From the NCBI GenBank assembly GCA_017541025.1, contig JAFXZY010000017.1:1-48527 (forward strand): 48,527 bases of DNA, written 5' to 3'. Position 1 is the first letter of the stretch; every line of letters starts with the position of its first letter. This document shows, piece by piece, positions 2,527-8,410 of the stretch. The position numbers and the translations under genes are program-made. The DNA comes from Bacteroidaceae bacterium. GTDB taxonomy: Bacteria; Bacteroidota; Bacteroidia; Bacteroidales; Bacteroidaceae. The notes below the pieces were generated by a model. It was given only the letters and a program-made list of their open reading frames with translations, did not search any database and was not told the DNA's origin.

Positions 2527-3339
2527 CTATTTCTTAATCACCATTATAGACATCTCATACAAGAGGAACAGGGGTACGAATACCAACATTAGCGTAAACG
2601 GATCGCCACTGGGTGTGATGATGGCTGCTGCCACCAATAATATCACAGTGGCGTGTCTGCGATATTGGCGCAGAAAATCCTTGTGAAGAACCCCTAATTG
2701 GGAGAGAATCCAAGCCAGCAAAGGCATCTCGAACACGATTCCCATAACCAAGATAAGCATGGTAAAGTTACCGATGTACGACGACAGGTTTATCTGGTTC
2801 TGAATACTGGGACTTAGCTCATATTCCATTAAGAAACGGAAGGTAAAGGGGAAAACAAGGAAATAGCCGATTGCACAGCCCAGATAAAACATAAGTGTTC
2901 CACCCAAAAAGGCGGGTCGGATGTGCTTTATCTCGTTCTCGTAAAGTGCAGGTTCTATGAATTTCCATATTTCCCAGATAAAATAGGGGAATGCAATAAC
3001 AGCTGCCAGCGAGATAGACGTCTGGATATGCGTCATAAACTGACTGGCTACGTTTATGTTGATAATCTGAACGTTAAAATCCGGGCTGAAGGTAATCATA
3101 CCATGGCTTATTTTGCTCAGCCAGCGGTAAACAAAGAAGTCGTTGCTGGTTGCTGCAAGAATGAAGTCGTCAAAAATGTGTGGCAGTACCGAAAAGGTTC
3201 CTATTAAACAAAGTAATAAGACGCATGCCGATCTGAAAAAGGCCCACCTGAGTACCTCCAGGTGATCCCAAAACGACATGCTTTCATTTGCATTTTCTTC
3301 TGTGCTCTCCTTTTTTATGACTTCTTTATCTTCTTGCAT
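2527..3339 (-). CDS. tatC: Sec-independent protein translocase TatC
   Basis: A 270-residue polytopic membrane protein, the substrate-recognition core of the twin-arginine translocase. The N-terminus carries SFWDHLEVLRWAFFRS, the TatC signature (HL-x-E-L-R), followed by six hydrophobic segments, with a conserved-type FPYFIWEIWKFIEPALYENE loop after the second. It is 71 bases downstream of the TIM-barrel gene, separated by a terminator-like hairpin, so expression may depend on read-through. With tatA at 6861-7070 it brackets a Tat substrate gene, which suggests a locus-linked Tat system. No tatB is seen; Bacteroidota commonly have TatAC only. Confidence 0.93.
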   Translation of the reverse strand: MQEDKEVIKKESTEENANESMSFWDHLEVLRWAFFRSACVLLLCLIGTFSVLPHIFDDFILAATSNDFFVYRWLSKISHGMITFSPDFNVQIININVASQFMTHIQTSISLAAVIAFPYFIWEIWKFIEPALYENEIKHIRPAFLGGTLMFYLGCAIGYFLVFPFTFRFLMEYELSPSIQNQINLSSYIGNFTMLILVMGIVFEMPLLAWILSQLGVLHKDFLRQYRRHATVILLVAAAIITPSGDPFTLMLVFVPLFLLYEMSIMVIKK

Positions 3340-3353
3340 AATCTTTATTTCAG

Positions 3354-3390
3354 AAAAATATGGGTTACAGGTTTAAAGCCTATAACCCAT
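3354..3390 (-). terminator. Rho-independent terminator after the TIM-barrel gene, before tatC
   Basis: The inverted repeat ATGGGTTA...TAACCCAT (3360-3390), with an inner AGG/CCT pairing, is followed on the minus strand by a T5 run (3358-3354). It lies between 3411-4298 and tatC. Confidence 0.65.
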
Positions 3391-3410
3391 AATTGTATTA
3401 CATTATAATA

Positions 3411-4298
3411 TTACTTAGCGTATGTGGGCTTAACAAACTTGGCTGCCTTCAGGTAGTCTGCGCAAACCTTCATTCCATCCAGAATGTTGGGTCTGTTGCT
3501 TCCTTCCAACTCTACAACCAAATGCTTCAGTCCAGCCTTGTCTGCATTGTTAAAGATAGCATCGAAGCCAACCATACCGCTTTCGCCAAACTCCCTGTGG
3601 TCCTTAATGTGGAGAAGGGTAAAGCGACCGGGATATTTCTTGAAGTATTCAACGGGACTAACCTGTCCGCGAACTGCCCAGTAAACGTCCATCTCAAAGA
3701 ATACTTTATCGGCGTCAGTATGCTCAACCATGTAGTCGTACCATACCTTACCTTCTACCTTACCGAACTCATGTGAGTGGTTATGGTAACCGAACTTCAT
3801 ACCGGCAGCATTCACCATTTCACCTACCTTGTTCAGGTACTTGCAGATTACGTCGGCTTCTGCCAATGTCTTAGGATAGTTTACACCTGGGTTTACAATG
3901 TACTGCATGCCTGCGCGCTTGTGTGCTTCAATGCACTCGGCCCACCATTTAAGAGCACCATCGAAATTACCAGACTTCAACTCGTTGTCGTTAAGATTGT
4001 GACCAACGTGGCTTGATAGCACCTTCATGCCTGCAGCTTCGATGTCAGCCTTAAACTGCTCTGGTGTAACACCATACAGCTTTCCGTCACCATAATTGGC
4101 AGCCTCAACAGCTGTATATCCCATCTGAGCCAATTCCTTTAGAACCTTCTCGTGGTTCTGAGCATACTTGCCGGGATCGCCAATAAGCTCACGAACAGAA
4201 TACATCTGGAAGGCAATATCCTTCTTCTTGGCCTCTACATTCATGCTCATAGAAAGAGCCGCCAGAGCCAAAAGTACTATAGAAAATAACTTCTTCAT
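3411..4298 (-). CDS. Secreted sugar phosphate isomerase/epimerase-like TIM-barrel protein
   Basis: A 295-residue protein with a Sec signal peptide (MKKLFSIVLLALAALSMSMNVEA). The mature part is an AP-endonuclease-2/xylose-isomerase-like barrel: FQMYSVRE strand 1, YHNHSHEF, FFEMDVYW, LLHIKDH and VVELE supply the usual Glu/Asp/His metal ligands. Family members act on keto-sugars. Being periplasmic and next to a DUF1080 protein and a Gfo/Idh/MocA dehydrogenase, it probably acts on a 3-keto-glycoside or 2-hydroxy-3-ketoglycal intermediate; comparable Bacteroides loci carry such an enzyme. It is 16 bases downstream of the DUF1080 gene. Confidence 0.8.
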   Translation of the reverse strand: MKKLFSIVLLALAALSMSMNVEAKKKDIAFQMYSVRELIGDPGKYAQNHEKVLKELAQMGYTAVEAANYGDGKLYGVTPEQFKADIEAAGMKVLSSHVGHNLNDNELKSGNFDGALKWWAECIEAHKRAGMQYIVNPGVNYPKTLAEADVICKYLNKVGEMVNAAGMKFGYHNHSHEFGKVEGKVWYDYMVEHTDADKVFFEMDVYWAVRGQVSPVEYFKKYPGRFTLLHIKDHREFGESGMVGFDAIFNNADKAGLKHLVVELEGSNRPNILDGMKVCADYLKAAKFVKPTYAK

Positions 4299-4314
4299 AA
4301 AATAACCAGTTTAA

Positions 4315-5178
4315 TTACTTTAATACCTTAACTCGAACATTACGATACCAAACCTCGTCGCCGTGGTCCTGGAAACCAAAATAACCGGGCTCCTTACCGC
4401 AATCCTTCATAATCTCGAAGGCAAGTGGCCAGTTCTTCTGACTGAACTTAGAGGTCTGAAGCAGGTCAACCCAAGACTGGTCAGCTAATTTATAGCTGAG
4501 CACTTTTACACCGTTCTGATAGTGAGTAACCTTGCCGTTCTTGCAAACAACTTTTACCTTATTCCACTGACCTGCGGGTTTAGCGTTCTGAGGTTCTGCA
4601 ACAATCATATCGTAAAGAGAGGTTGACTGACGTATTCCCAGTGTGGCACCTAACTTAGCATCGGGATGACGCTCGTTGTCCAACACCTGACACTCTGGGC
4701 AAGAGATATAGATGGGCTGATAGTTCAGTTTAGCATCTTTCTGAATGGTAATGGTAGCCTTGATAGGACCATCATTCAGTTCCTTTGTCTCTGGACGAGG
4801 TTGCTCGATGGTAGCAGTTTCCTTTCCCAGATAGAAAATTCCAGAGTTACCACCCTCTGCAATCTTCCATTCTACTTCGAACTCGAAGTTTAGGAACCGG
4901 CGTGTAAAGATGATGTCACCACCTTCACCCTGACCGCGACCGTTGAAGTGCAAAGCACCATCCTGAATATTCCATTTGCTGGGAATATGATCTTTACCAT
5001 ATCCTCTCCAACCGTCCATGCTGGTACCGTCAAAGAGTACATAGTAACCATCCTTGTCGACTTTCAGTGAACTCAATTCTACTTCGGGGTTTTGAACGAT
5101 AACGTACTGCATGCCTTGAGCGGTTGCAGTGAGTGCAGCCATCATAGAAGCAGCTGCCAATATGTTTCTCATTTTCAT
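4315..5178 (-). CDS. DUF1080 family protein (3-keto-disaccharide hydrolase fold)
   Basis: A 287-residue protein starting MKMRNILAAASMMAAL, with a Sec signal peptide ending near TATAQG. The frame extends 13 codons upstream, without a signal. The jelly-roll body has FDGTSMDGWRG, the edge-strand motif FEFEVEWKIAEGGNSGIFY and a C-terminal WYRNVRVKVL strand, all diagnostic of DUF1080/Pfam 3-keto-disaccharide hydrolase. The family cleaves glycosidic bonds after oxidation of the C3 hydroxyl to a ketone. Location (periplasm) and neighbours fit that role. An unusually long stem-loop (5213-5255) lies just upstream. Confidence 0.85.
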   Translation of the reverse strand: MKMRNILAAASMMAALTATAQGMQYVIVQNPEVELSSLKVDKDGYYVLFDGTSMDGWRGYGKDHIPSKWNIQDGALHFNGRGQGEGGDIIFTRRFLNFEFEVEWKIAEGGNSGIFYLGKETATIEQPRPETKELNDGPIKATITIQKDAKLNYQPIYISCPECQVLDNERHPDAKLGATLGIRQSTSLYDMIVAEPQNAKPAGQWNKVKVVCKNGKVTHYQNGVKVLSYKLADQSWVDLLQTSKFSQKNWPLAFEIMKDCGKEPGYFGFQDHGDEVWYRNVRVKVLK

Positions 5179-5212
5179 AACTTTGAAAGCTTTTGTTGAA
5201 TATAGAATTAAA

Positions 5213-5255
5213 GACAATTAGAGACATCGATTCAAACGTAATGTCTCTAATTGTC
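5213..5255 (-). terminator. Long intercistronic stem-loop (terminator or attenuator)
   Basis: A perfect 15-bp inverted repeat (arms 5213-5227 and 5241-5255, 13-base loop). On the minus strand it follows the dehydrogenase stop and is followed by a short TTTAATT stretch. It sits inside the presumed operon, so it may cause partial termination or protect the 3' end of the dehydrogenase message. Confidence 0.6.
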
Positions 5256-5282
5256 GGTTAGTTCAGAAATTACCTGTTATTA

Positions 5283-6818
5283 TTAATCTTGTGGCATGTC
5301 GGGTAGAACATAGCCGTTCTGATAATTAGGCTTAATCAGTTCTGCTGCGAACTCGCGTGCATTAACAGGATCTGTGTAGGTCTTGTTGAATGTTGGGTGT
5401 CCGTCGTGAATTGAGAAACCATCCTTCAACATGGCGCGAACAGTAGCATTCTCGGGAATGTTGGTGAACTTCATGTTTTCACCATCCCAATCCAAGGTCT
5501 GGTTCAGACCTTGCAGACGTGTAGCAACTACACCCATGGCAACCATCTCGTTGAATGGACCTGCCTCGCTGAAGTCTGATGCTGTTCTTGTCCAATCCTT
5601 CTTACCCTCGCGGATTTCCTTGATGGCACGGATCCAGTCGCGCTGGTGACCACCAGGACCACCAGGAACACGGCGGCAAACCTTAGGAGCATTGGGAACA
5701 CGACCGCTAACCAGATAGGGCTTCTCACCATAGCAACCAACTACCAGAATATCCTTGGTACCATAGAAGATAGCACCACCACCGCTGACGTTCAAGTCCT
5801 TACCAACGGGCAGACCGTCGGGACGGAAGGGGATAATACCACCATCGCTCCATGTAACAACAACCTCAGGCATAGCAACCTTAGGACGGTTGGGACGAGC
5901 GGGATAAGTCAGTTTAACAACCTGAGCGCTGGGGCAGCAGTCAGACATAAGTGGGGTAGAGCTACCCTCGGCGTGAATGGGATAACCCAAATCCAGAGCC
6001 TTGAATACGGGGTGCAGAATATGGCAAGCCATATCACCCAGAGCACCTGTACCAAAGTCCCACCATCCGCGGAAGTTCCAGGGGTGATAGATAGAGTTGT
6101 AAGGACGCTTGGGTGCGGGACCGATAAAGGCATCCCAGTTCAATGTGCTGGGAATCTCGTGTACTTCGGTAGGACGCTCCAGACCCTGAGGCCAGATAGG
6201 ACGGTCTGTGAAGGCATCAACGCGTGTTACCTCGCCGATCTCACCGTTCCAGATCCACTCGCAAGTCAGGTTTACACCCTCGCCGCTTGAACCCTGGTTA
6301 CCCATCTGGGTTGCAACACCGGCTTTAGCAGCCAACTTGGTGAGCAGACGAGATTCATATACTGTACGTGTCAGAGGCTTCTCGCAATATACGTGCTTGC
6401 CAGCTGCCAGTGCCTCGGCGCAGATGATAGCATGGGTGTGGTCAGCAGTACCGCAGATAACAGCGTCTGCCTGATCCAGGAGCTCTGCATACATCTTCTT
6501 GTAGTCGTCGTAAATCTTCATGTTGGGGAAGAGCTTCTTGTACTCGTCCAAAACACCCTTGGCATACTTCTGGTCAACATCACACATGCCGATGAACTCA
6601 ACATCGTCATAGATTTCGTCTTTACCTTTGTAAGTAACGCCATTGATGTCAGCGTGTCCACGGCCACCTACACCAACACCTAAGAGTTTAATCTTACCAA
6701 GGTTTGCATTCTTCTTGTTTGCCTTGGCCTTTGCAAGCAATTCGCTTGGAGTTAACGCCAATGCTGCGGTTGCAGCTGTACCAGCCTTCAGAAAAGACCT
6801 TCTTGACATTTCTTTCAT
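5283..6818 (-). CDS. Tat-exported Gfo/Idh/MocA family dehydrogenase (candidate glycoside 3-dehydrogenase)
   Basis: A 511-residue protein. The N-terminus MKEMSRRSFLKAG is a twin-arginine signal (Arg6-Arg7), followed by a hydrophobic stretch ending around SELLAKA. A Rossmann fold follows (KLLGVGVGGRGH, G-x-G-x-x-G type), then CEKPLTR, the EKP motif of Gfo/Idh/MocA enzymes, and the C-terminal alpha/beta domain with HQRDWIRAI. Such enzymes fold with NAD(P) bound, which explains use of Tat. In Bacteroides 3-keto-glycoside loci a homologue oxidises sugar C3 hydroxyls. Here it stands with DUF1080 and TIM-barrel partners and is directly downstream of tatA, supporting that role. The exact substrate is inference. 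Confidence 0.88.
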   Translation of the reverse strand: MKEMSRRSFLKAGTAATAALALTPSELLAKAKANKKNANLGKIKLLGVGVGGRGHADINGVTYKGKDEIYDDVEFIGMCDVDQKYAKGVLDEYKKLFPNMKIYDDYKKMYAELLDQADAVICGTADHTHAIICAEALAAGKHVYCEKPLTRTVYESRLLTKLAAKAGVATQMGNQGSSGEGVNLTCEWIWNGEIGEVTRVDAFTDRPIWPQGLERPTEVHEIPSTLNWDAFIGPAPKRPYNSIYHPWNFRGWWDFGTGALGDMACHILHPVFKALDLGYPIHAEGSSTPLMSDCCPSAQVVKLTYPARPNRPKVAMPEVVVTWSDGGIIPFRPDGLPVGKDLNVSGGGAIFYGTKDILVVGCYGEKPYLVSGRVPNAPKVCRRVPGGPGGHQRDWIRAIKEIREGKKDWTRTASDFSEAGPFNEMVAMGVVATRLQGLNQTLDWDGENMKFTNIPENATVRAMLKDGFSIHDGHPTFNKTYTDPVNAREFAAELIKPNYQNGYVLPDMPQD

Positions 6819-6860
6819 ACTGTTGTTGTTTTTAGGGTTATTATTGAATGTTTATTACAC

Positions 6861-7070
6861 TTATTTCTTTTCAACTTCTTTCTTCGTGTCAACTTCTGCG
6901 TTGATTTCGTTTTCTATTTCGTTCATGCCAGTCTTGAAACTTCTTACGCCTTTACCAATACCATGCATTAGTTCTGGGATTTTCTTGCCACCGAAGAGAA
7001 GCAATACTACTAAACAAATGACAATAATCTCACCTGTTCCTAATCCACCTAAAAATAATAATTGTGCCAT
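6861..7070 (-). CDS. tatA: Sec-independent protein translocase TatA
   Basis: A 69-residue protein: a short N-terminus, one hydrophobic helix ([21 protein letters not shown]), the FGGKKIPEL hinge typical of TatA/E, then an amphipathic helix ([15 protein letters not shown]) and a charged tail. It forms the pore-like component of the twin-arginine translocase. It lies 42 bases upstream of the Tat substrate gene and 20 bases downstream of a cytoplasmic dehydrogenase, clearly in one operon. Its partner tatC is 3.5 kb further down the same strand. Confidence 0.95.
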
Positions 7071-7090
7071 AATTATAATGTTATTTGTTT

Positions 7091-8161
7091 TTATTTCTGA
7101 TTAAGCAGGCCGTAACCATTTGTCATGTGGGCTCTGCGATAGTGAATCTGTTCCAGTTCCTCTGGTGTCCCTTTTGACGGCATGTCGTGCGTCCAAGCAT
7201 CATCCAACATCTTCCATGCATATTCCGATGCAATGGCTGCATCCTCGAACTTGGGCAGGTGTTCCGGTCTGACACCTGTCAGGATCGCCTCGCCCATCAG
7301 GTAACACAGGCGGTCGATATTCTTGTCTCCATAAGGTTTCTCAACCACCTCTGTGATGTGTTCGCCGTGCTTCTCCACAATGGCATTCTTGAAGTCGTGG
7401 TGCATGCGAACGAATCCCTTACTGCCAATAATCTCGGTATATGAGTTGTGGGTCTGGTCTTTTGCCAACTGACCGTAAACAAATCCCTGCGTAATATCGT
7501 AAACAATACCGTTCTCGAATGTTCCATGACATTGTAGCCACCAAGGGTCTTTGTAGTCCCACATACGAATGGCCTGTGCATGTCCTGTCTTGTACTCCGA
7601 ATCGGCATAGTATCGTGCGATATCTACATAATGCATGCCGCAATCGTGGAATGAGGGTCCTTCGAATTCGTGTCCTTCGCCAGGAGAAAGACCGGGAGTC
7701 ATGTGGCAGATTCTTATGATGGCCACGTCGCCAATCTCTCCGCTTTTAATAAAATTCTTCATCTCCTTGGTGTACCAAGCATTCCTCAGATACAGGTTTA
7801 CGGTGCAAATCTTATCTGTAGTCTTGGACAGTTTCACCAATTCGAATTCATCTTCCATCTTATAGGCTAAAGGCTTTTCGCACATTACGTGCTTGCCTGT
7901 GGCAATAGCTTTTTTTATCCGTCCCGGTCTGCTGTCGGCCAGGGCATATAATCCTACACATTCTATCTCCGAATCATCGAAAATATCATCTTCGTTTGTG
8001 GTGAAGATGGCGTTGGGAGCTATTTCTTTGGAATATTTCTCTTTTTCCGGATCAATATCACAGACATACTTGACATCCCAGAAATCGCAATTGACAAGTT
8101 CCCTTAGATGCTTTCTGCCCATGCGTCCTAATCCGATAATTCCTATTTTTACACGATTCAT
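7091..8161 (-). CDS. Cytoplasmic Gfo/Idh/MocA family oxidoreductase
   Basis: A 356-residue protein without a signal peptide. It begins [14 protein letters not shown] (NAD(P)-binding G-x-G-x-x-G) and contains CEKPLAYK, the EKP catalytic motif, then the dimerising C-terminal sheet ([16 protein letters not shown]). It is the promoter-proximal gene of the tat/keto-sugar unit. Being cytoplasmic, it could reduce or oxidise the imported keto-sugar, completing a cycle with the exported dehydrogenase; this is inference. Inositol-type dehydrogenase activity is an alternative. Confidence 0.82.
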
Positions 8162-8410
8162 TTGTTCTTTGTAACCAGTTTTAGGCCAATAATTACCCTT
8201 TAAACTCGCATTTGGTTGTAAAGGTACAATATTTTTTTTAACAATTCGTTATCTGCAATATATATTTTATCTATTTTAACAATTTACTTTGTATATCTTT
8301 TGTCTTTATTCTACTGCAAAGGTATCTCGCATTATTTTCGTGAAGCTTTAATAAATGACATAATATCTTTATTTATTGTCATATAAGTTATTTTGCCCAA
8401 ACAAGGATAT
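8162..8410. promoter_or_regulatory. AT-rich leader and upstream region of the tat/keto-sugar unit
   Basis: There is no ORF here. On the minus strand TACCTTTG (8324-8317) fits a -7 element but lacks a TTG at the -33 position. Just upstream, ATGACA (8355-8360) and TGTCAT (8377-8382) form an imperfect dyad. A weak promoter with an adjacent dyad is what an activator-controlled promoter would look like. About 150 bases of AT-rich leader separate it from the ATG at 8161. Confidence 0.35.

Follow-up and report, generated by a model that had tools for sequence, protein, structure and literature searches.

The window, by which we mean the whole 48,527-nucleotide stretch of DNA analysed here, is contig JAFXZY010000017.1 (C39 in our numbering) of assembly GCA_017541025.1, which derives from a rumen bacterium of the Bacteroidaceae. 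On its minus strand lies a cluster of six genes in which tatA and tatC, the genes of a twin-arginine translocation (Tat) system, flank genes for predicted enzymes of 3-keto-glycoside breakdown. In the direction of reading, the cluster encodes a BT_2159-like dehydrogenase, TatA, a BT_2158-like dehydrogenase carrying a Tat signal, a DUF1080 protein, a secreted TIM barrel and TatC, with gaps of 20, 42, 104, 16 and 71 nucleotides between successive genes. The features are as follows.

8317–8324, minus strand: TACCTTTG, candidate match to the Bacteroidetes promoter consensus TAnnTTTG, lying 5′ of the first gene
7091–8161, minus strand: predicted cytoplasmic BT_2159-like Gfo/Idh/MocA dehydrogenase (NF058563, 574.1 bits, cut-off 650; PF01408)
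6861–7070, minus strand: tatA (PF02416, 53.1 bits; TIGR01411, 64.7 versus cut-off 53.9)
5283–6818, minus strand: Tat-signal BT_2158-like Gfo/Idh/MocA dehydrogenase (NF058561, 729.8 bits, cut-off 750; PF10518, 28.5)
5213–5255, minus strand: stem-loop in the gap between the Tat-signal dehydrogenase and DUF1080 genes (z-score −5.1 for the whole gap)
4315–5178, minus strand: DUF1080 protein, putative 3-keto-glycoside hydrolase or lyase, Sec-type signal by eye (PF06439, 149.9 bits)
3411–4298, minus strand: xylose-isomerase-like TIM barrel, predicted to be secreted, Sec-type signal by eye (PF01261, 59.7 bits)
3359–3391, minus strand: terminator-like hairpin in the gap between the TIM-barrel gene and tatC (13 pairs, then a T run)
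2527–3339, minus strand: tatC (PF00902, 204.8 bits; TIGR00945, 151.8 versus cut-off 132.7)

Gene positions and family scans bear out the arrangement described in an earlier, sequence-only reading of this DNA, in which tatA and tatC bracket the Tat-signal dehydrogenase, the DUF1080 protein and the TIM barrel. TatA and TatC both score above their curated cut-offs, the combination that defines a TatAC-type translocase. The twin-arginine signal noted in that reading (Arg6–Arg7) is also recognized by the models (PF10518 TAT_signal against a cut-off of 22.7; TIGR01409, 23.9 against 16.7), making the dehydrogenase a predicted Tat substrate, and both arginines are invariant in 11 of 11 aligned sequences. 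The proposed match to the Bacteroides 3-ketoglycoside enzyme set is likewise supported by family models and solved relatives. The two dehydrogenases align over the full length of the equivalog models BT_2158_fam (glycoside 3-dehydrogenase, positions 1–487 of 487) and BT_2159_fam (disaccharide 3-dehydrogenase, positions 1–350 of 350), and the DUF1080 protein passes the gathering score of the 3-keto-disaccharide hydrolase family (26.8 bits). Its start is more likely, by eye, to be the ATG at 5178 than the listed open reading frame start, a TTG at 5217. The nearest solved structures are 8tdf and 8tdh for the Tat-signal dehydrogenase; relatives include 8v31, 8tda, 8rr2 and 9fbe for DUF1080 and 8tct, 8tcd and 8tcs for the TIM barrel, and the BT_2159-like protein has distant ones only. 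The Tat-signal dehydrogenase falls formally just outside the BT_2158 equivalog family, yet from its sequence it probably works like BT_2158.

The sequence-only reading had proposed that the translocase is kept largely for this pathway. In keeping with this, TatC and TatA each match once in the assembly (G000; 3.28 Mb, 95 contigs), in this cluster, and a second tat locus did not turn up in the 83.85% complete sequence. Four congeners that carry the same bracket, and whose assemblies are 90–100% complete, likewise have a single tatA, a single tatC and no further tat locus. As the only tat genes detected in the cell, those of the cluster must export other Tat proteins too. The Tat-signal model TIGR01409 returns 11 matches in this genome at E values up to 10, eight of them above the cut-off; ten are proteins other than the window's dehydrogenase, three of these falling below it, and the translocase therefore cannot serve a single cargo. 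Five of the 11 are Gfo-family enzymes (the window's included) and two are metallophosphoesterases. The others are an aldo/keto reductase that has ferredoxin domains and a signal resembling that of lipoproteins, a ferredoxin-like protein, a TIM barrel and a contig-end fragment. Several of the matches are unconnected with sugar oxidation, which counts against the proposal, although enzymes of the window's kind are a large share of the Tat-signal proteins of this genome. The proposal stands in form, as a translocase tied to a main cargo by conserved linkage (below), but is not supported as a claim that the translocase is kept largely for this pathway.

DUF1080 genes adjoin two of the four other Tat-signal Gfo genes, on contigs C51 (L363:5330–11581) and C25 (L365:5168–7257), and the C51 locus continues into GH92 and GH76 (mannan-type) genes. 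Contig C45 (L367:2705–8785) has a cluster of genes for beta-propeller proteins, for a NapH-like protein and for a ferredoxin whose Tat signal is weak, as well as for a 343-residue neighbour with a KR-S-FLK-like N-terminal signal that is not among the Tat-model matches.

The linkage is conserved in relatives. In a sample of 151 genomes of the family, tatC is present in 124 and a BT_2158 relative, defined by a threshold of at least 600 bits that we set ourselves, in 29. In 16 of these 29 no more than 6 kb separate tatC from the dehydrogenase gene, whereas a 12-kb stretch in a genome of about 3 Mb would be hit in about 0.4% of cases per copy, so chance is a poor account of the linkage. All 29 genomes with the dehydrogenase have tatC, against 95 of the 122 without it (P = 0.0024, uncorrected for descent; five weak or partial tatC places were excluded from this count and their genomes retained). 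tatA was searched in 17 family genomes. In G034 and G006 it lies directly upstream of a dehydrogenase gene, and tatC follows a TIM-barrel gene on another contig; in G006 a contig ends at this very point. In G010, contig C12 ends with tatA and the start of a dehydrogenase gene, and contig C30 opens inside a dehydrogenase gene and runs on through DUF1080, TIM barrel and tatC; the two appear to form one broken bracket.

A wider set of named loci, the best 80 of 573, was chosen by similarity to the query and is therefore biased towards near kin. The bracketed order occurs in 19 of them, one truncated before tatA by a contig end. tatA and tatC lie together on the same strand in five others and on the opposite strand in two, tatA is found alone in two, and in L068 the tat genes lie at a greater distance. 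Rumen Bacteroidaceae and Alistipes carry the bracket, as do other uncultured Bacteroidales, and it was also seen in regions of genera g1, g2 and g30. No tat genes were found in the flanking DNA examined, some of it short, of Bacteroides, Parabacteroides and Tannerella loci. Across the order, 101 of 393 genomes contain the dehydrogenase at an E value of 1e-150 or better. One neighbourhood was taken for each of the 100 genomes besides the window's own, at the best-scoring match except in G338. tat genes lie within 8 kb in six of the 100, spread over three of 40 families; 61 loci, including all six, have at least 4 kb on both sides. Some families have thus conserved the linkage of tat genes to the dehydrogenase, but most lack it, and the synteny anticipated by the sequence-only reading holds in parts of the order and is rare in the order-wide sample. 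Apparent internal stops in some BT_2158 relatives proved, in the seven relatives checked, to be natural terminal stops.

TatC itself falls into two lineages. A midpoint-rooted tree of 86 rows (dropping the partial sequences L033, L039, L185 and L188, the window's second copy L001, L062 and identical cores) contains two supported groups, one of 41 rows (38 unlinked and 3 linked) and one of 45 rows (27 bracketed, 10 linked and 8 unlinked). All 27 bracketed rows are located within a single supported group of 32. The window's genus is divided between the two lineages: G000, G010, G060, G095 and G138 have TatC of the bracketed lineage and G078, G110, G038 and G124 that of the other, with a single tatC each. 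A single grouping of the genus is rejected by the approximately unbiased (AU) test (P = 3.5e-5), for which 71 of the 86 rows were kept after removal of five long rows and ten near-copies. In an RpoB tree, with rpoB from 26 of 30 genomes, both TatC kinds are intermixed within the genus. This tree was used for the relatives only, because the window genome's own rpoB is a 228-residue fragment on a long branch; G053, which has two tatC genes, was labelled in it from the tatC beside its reductase gene and not from the TatC tree. Two genomes, G112 and G140, contain both TatC kinds. Either differential loss from an ancestor with two TatC proteins or replacement could have produced the mixture. Additional tatA matches distant from any tatC were seen at G112:C16:54423–54575, G140:C24:10161–10301 and G097:C11:147555–147704.

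A strict single origin of the bracket is rejected: an exclusive clade of the 21 bracketed TatC rows kept in the test is not compatible with the data (AU P = 0.0095), because rearranged loci are nested among them. On a quick dehydrogenase tree (96 of 98 rows), the bracket label needs seven changes, five of them forced by starred branches, and the presence or absence of tat genes needs 12. In L144, L145 and L147 (G089, G148 and G120), the bracketed TatC groups with that of G030 and the dehydrogenase, on a long branch, with that of Tannerella forsythia; exchange of cargo inside the bracket is possible, as is a tree artefact.

The cluster genes may be co-transcribed; tatC is a less certain member of the transcript, as a terminator-like hairpin parts it from the TIM-barrel gene. 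The candidate promoter element upstream of the cluster matches TAnnTTTG, which we take to be the Bacteroidetes consensus; in the gap between the TIM-barrel gene and tatC this motif occurs in 2 of 21 examinable loci, the window's not among them. Terminator-like sites are no more frequent in 7 kb of the window than in shuffled sequence (5 versus 6.1), and the hairpin is weak on its own. Among bracketed loci, however, the gap has a folding z-score below −3 in 22 of 25 (L101 dropped out for length; L054, L146 and L150 were excluded beforehand), compared with 1 of 24 gaps between tatA and the dehydrogenase gene (the window's has no stable fold), 5 of 26 between dehydrogenase and DUF1080, 6 of 26 between DUF1080 and TIM barrel and 5 of 81 other same-strand gaps. 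By energy only (−15 or lower), 23 of 31 control gaps of at least 50 nucleotides also qualify. The 100 nucleotides 3′ of the TIM-barrel gene reach a z-score below −3 in 22 of 27 loci without tat genes, 19 of 26 bracketed loci and 3 of 14 otherwise linked loci, by a measure that is unspecific, as 16 of 26 stretches 3′ of the dehydrogenase gene also reach it. Since an equal fold follows the TIM-barrel gene with or without tatC downstream, the hairpin is best read as the cassette's own terminator, with tatC beyond it, and a role as a device for tuning TatC was rejected. Judged from the sequence, this expression anatomy would give TatA in excess of TatC. The sequence of the hairpin varies among relatives. 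The stem-loop at 5213–5255 is also present in the near kin L054 and L062, and stem-loops of different sequence occur in a few other loci.

We propose that the cluster is a cassette for 3-ketoglycoside cleavage in the periplasm, with a built-in TatAC translocase, and assign this reading a probability of about 60%. Tight cofactor binding is a feature of Zymomonas glucose–fructose oxidoreductase and the Caulobacter oxidoreductase, and by analogy with the former the Tat signal would suit an enzyme exported with its cofactor already bound. The BT_2158-like dehydrogenase would fold around its nicotinamide cofactor in the cytoplasm and leave through TatAC, and the DUF1080 protein and TIM barrel would be exported by Sec. 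In the periplasm, the dehydrogenase would oxidize the glycoside at C3, and the DUF1080 protein, the TIM barrel or both would split the 3-keto glycoside by elimination and hydration. The 3-keto sugar may then be reduced by the bound NADH of the exported enzyme, as in glucose–fructose oxidoreductase, or it may be taken up and reduced in the cytoplasm by the BT_2159-like enzyme. With either dehydrogenase as the reductant, the pathway would be redox-neutral and need no electron outlet. Published excerpts provide precedents. BT2158 is reported to be a periplasmic glycoside 3-dehydrogenase without which there is no growth on trehalose, leucrose and palatinose (PMC11300592). In a related Agrobacterium pathway, oxidation is followed by elimination, hydration and reduction, and preliminary evidence indicates that 3-ketoglucose is made and then reduced by a Gfo enzyme (PMC10628242).

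Electrons of the periplasmic dehydrogenase might instead reach the quinone pool through a NapGH-like ferredoxin protein and a Tat-exported aldo/keto reductase, or a similar conduit. The genome does encode such a pair (on C24), and C45 holds a second NapH-like gene beside a ferredoxin gene whose Tat-signal match is below the cut-off. We consider this route improbable, as the pair is unlinked to the cassette here and common without the sugar dehydrogenase (105 of 151 genomes against 29 carriers of the latter), and reduction of the 3-keto sugar would already close the balance, for which the excerpted Agrobacterium work is a precedent (PMC10628242).

The same reductase is the more serious competitor as the reason for keeping Tat. 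It is a Tat-lipoprotein aldo/keto reductase that ends in ferredoxin domains, and its partner is a membrane polyferredoxin resembling NapGH (G000:C24, L361:5485–8581; in a relative, for example, L164:5316–9302); a literature search for a description of the pair returned nothing. Both genes lie near tatAC in 10 of the 18 regions examined from the 41-row TatC group and in none of 22 from the 45-row group. Of the 105 family genomes with the reductase, 104 have tatC, 50 of them at a distance of no more than 6 kb, and 26 of the 27 genomes without tatC also lack the reductase (Fisher P = 1e-15, uncorrected for descent). Family-wide, the best cargo predictor of Tat is therefore the reductase and not the sugar dehydrogenase; as 95 of the 122 genomes without the dehydrogenase keep tatC, the idea that Tat is kept mainly for the sugar pathway does not extend to the family. 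One could accordingly suppose that Tat is kept mainly for the reductase and its partner, with the sugar cassette merely housing a second TatC lineage. The window's genome holds the pair, and in the congeners G038 and G124, which lack the sugar dehydrogenase and have one and two Tat-signal matches, the strongest match is the reductase beside tatAC. In the window's lineage, however, the tat genes adjoin the sugar cassette, 20 genomes have tatC without the reductase, and Tat-signal matches (E values up to 0.01) are more numerous with the sugar dehydrogenase (median 6 in 29 genomes) than in the other 95 tatC genomes (median 1); 24 of the 27 genomes without tatC have none. On balance, we regard this supposition as unlikely, though less so than the quinone route. 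No genome has tatC linked to both reductase and dehydrogenase; 66 of the 124 show one linkage and 58 neither.

That the neighbourhood is chance or purely inherited gene order, without functional meaning, would agree with the low order-wide count (6 of 100) and with the clustering of bracketed TatC rows by descent. It is hard to reconcile with the several orders in which tat genes and cassette are joined (bracket, tatAC before, tatAC after, opposite strand) or with the 12 tat/no-tat changes needed on the quick dehydrogenase tree, and we think it improbable. A number of observations weigh against the cassette with built-in translocase: 13 of the 29 dehydrogenase-bearing family genomes lack the tatC linkage, as 94 of the 100 order-wide loci lack nearby tat genes; the BT_2159-like gene is missing from several bracketed loci; both dehydrogenases score below the curated cut-offs of the BT-named NCBI models; a terminator-like hairpin precedes tatC; and an excerpt of PMC11501099 reports that deletion of BT2157 or BT2158 in Bacteroides thetaiotaomicron causes no defect on raffinose-family sugars. 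We read the locus as a conserved pairing of a translocase with its main cargo, the family having two units of this kind. We tentatively suggest, at rather less than even odds, that the two are exchangeable translocase-plus-cargo cartridges with distinct TatC lineages, one built on the NapGH-linked reductase and the other on the 3-ketoglycoside cassette, and that one or the other is the only translocase of members of the genus. The whole folded-protein export of the window's lineage would then hang on a sugar cluster and may be induced by substrate.

Tat is usually regarded as an exporter for general use. In this family of gut bacteria, whether Tat is present, which lineage it belongs to and where its genes lie all go with one or two cargo modules, so that the reasons for its retention or loss in a lineage become testable. 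Breakdown of glycans through 3-ketoglycosides would also be tied to the export of a folded, cofactor-loaded enzyme, with a simple prediction for the recycling of periplasmic NADH. No report joining Tat genes to the 3-ketoglycoside pathway was found in titles and abstract openings, a search that did not cover three central papers, so an earlier report may exist.

Among the closest known systems is B. thetaiotaomicron BT2156–BT2160, used for disaccharides and glucosinolates, which has members of the same families: Gfo dehydrogenases (BT2158 and BT2159), a DUF1080 protein (BT2157) and a TIM barrel (BT2156). Unlike it, the window's cluster contains tatA and tatC, which are absent from the examined flanks, several of them short, of the Bacteroides loci. 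The O-glycoside β-eliminase pathway of Agrobacterium tumefaciens resembles the proposed one in oxidation, elimination by a TIM barrel, hydration and Gfo-type reduction of 3-ketoglucose; in the excerpt of that source DUF1080 is named 0 times and tat genes are not described (PMC10628242). Zymomonas mobilis glucose–fructose oxidoreductase and Caulobacter aldose–aldose oxidoreductase are likewise periplasmic Gfo-family enzymes with Tat signals, according to the excerpted source (PMC4628093), but they neither oxidize C3 nor cleave glycosides. Of the traits of a redox-neutral oxidoreductase of the former type, in which a nicotinamide that does not dissociate serves both half-reactions, the window's dehydrogenase shows the family and the Tat signal. 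Finally, TatAdCd of Bacillus subtilis, with its substrate PhoD, is a translocase tied to one main substrate, and an excerpt reports that expression of tatCd is confined to phosphate limitation (PMC3827258). The window shares with this dedicated kind of translocase the clustering of substrate and tat genes. It differs in that B. subtilis has a second translocase, TatCy, whereas no separate general translocase was found in the window's genome, and in that the cargo here is a sugar enzyme cassette placed between tatA and tatC.

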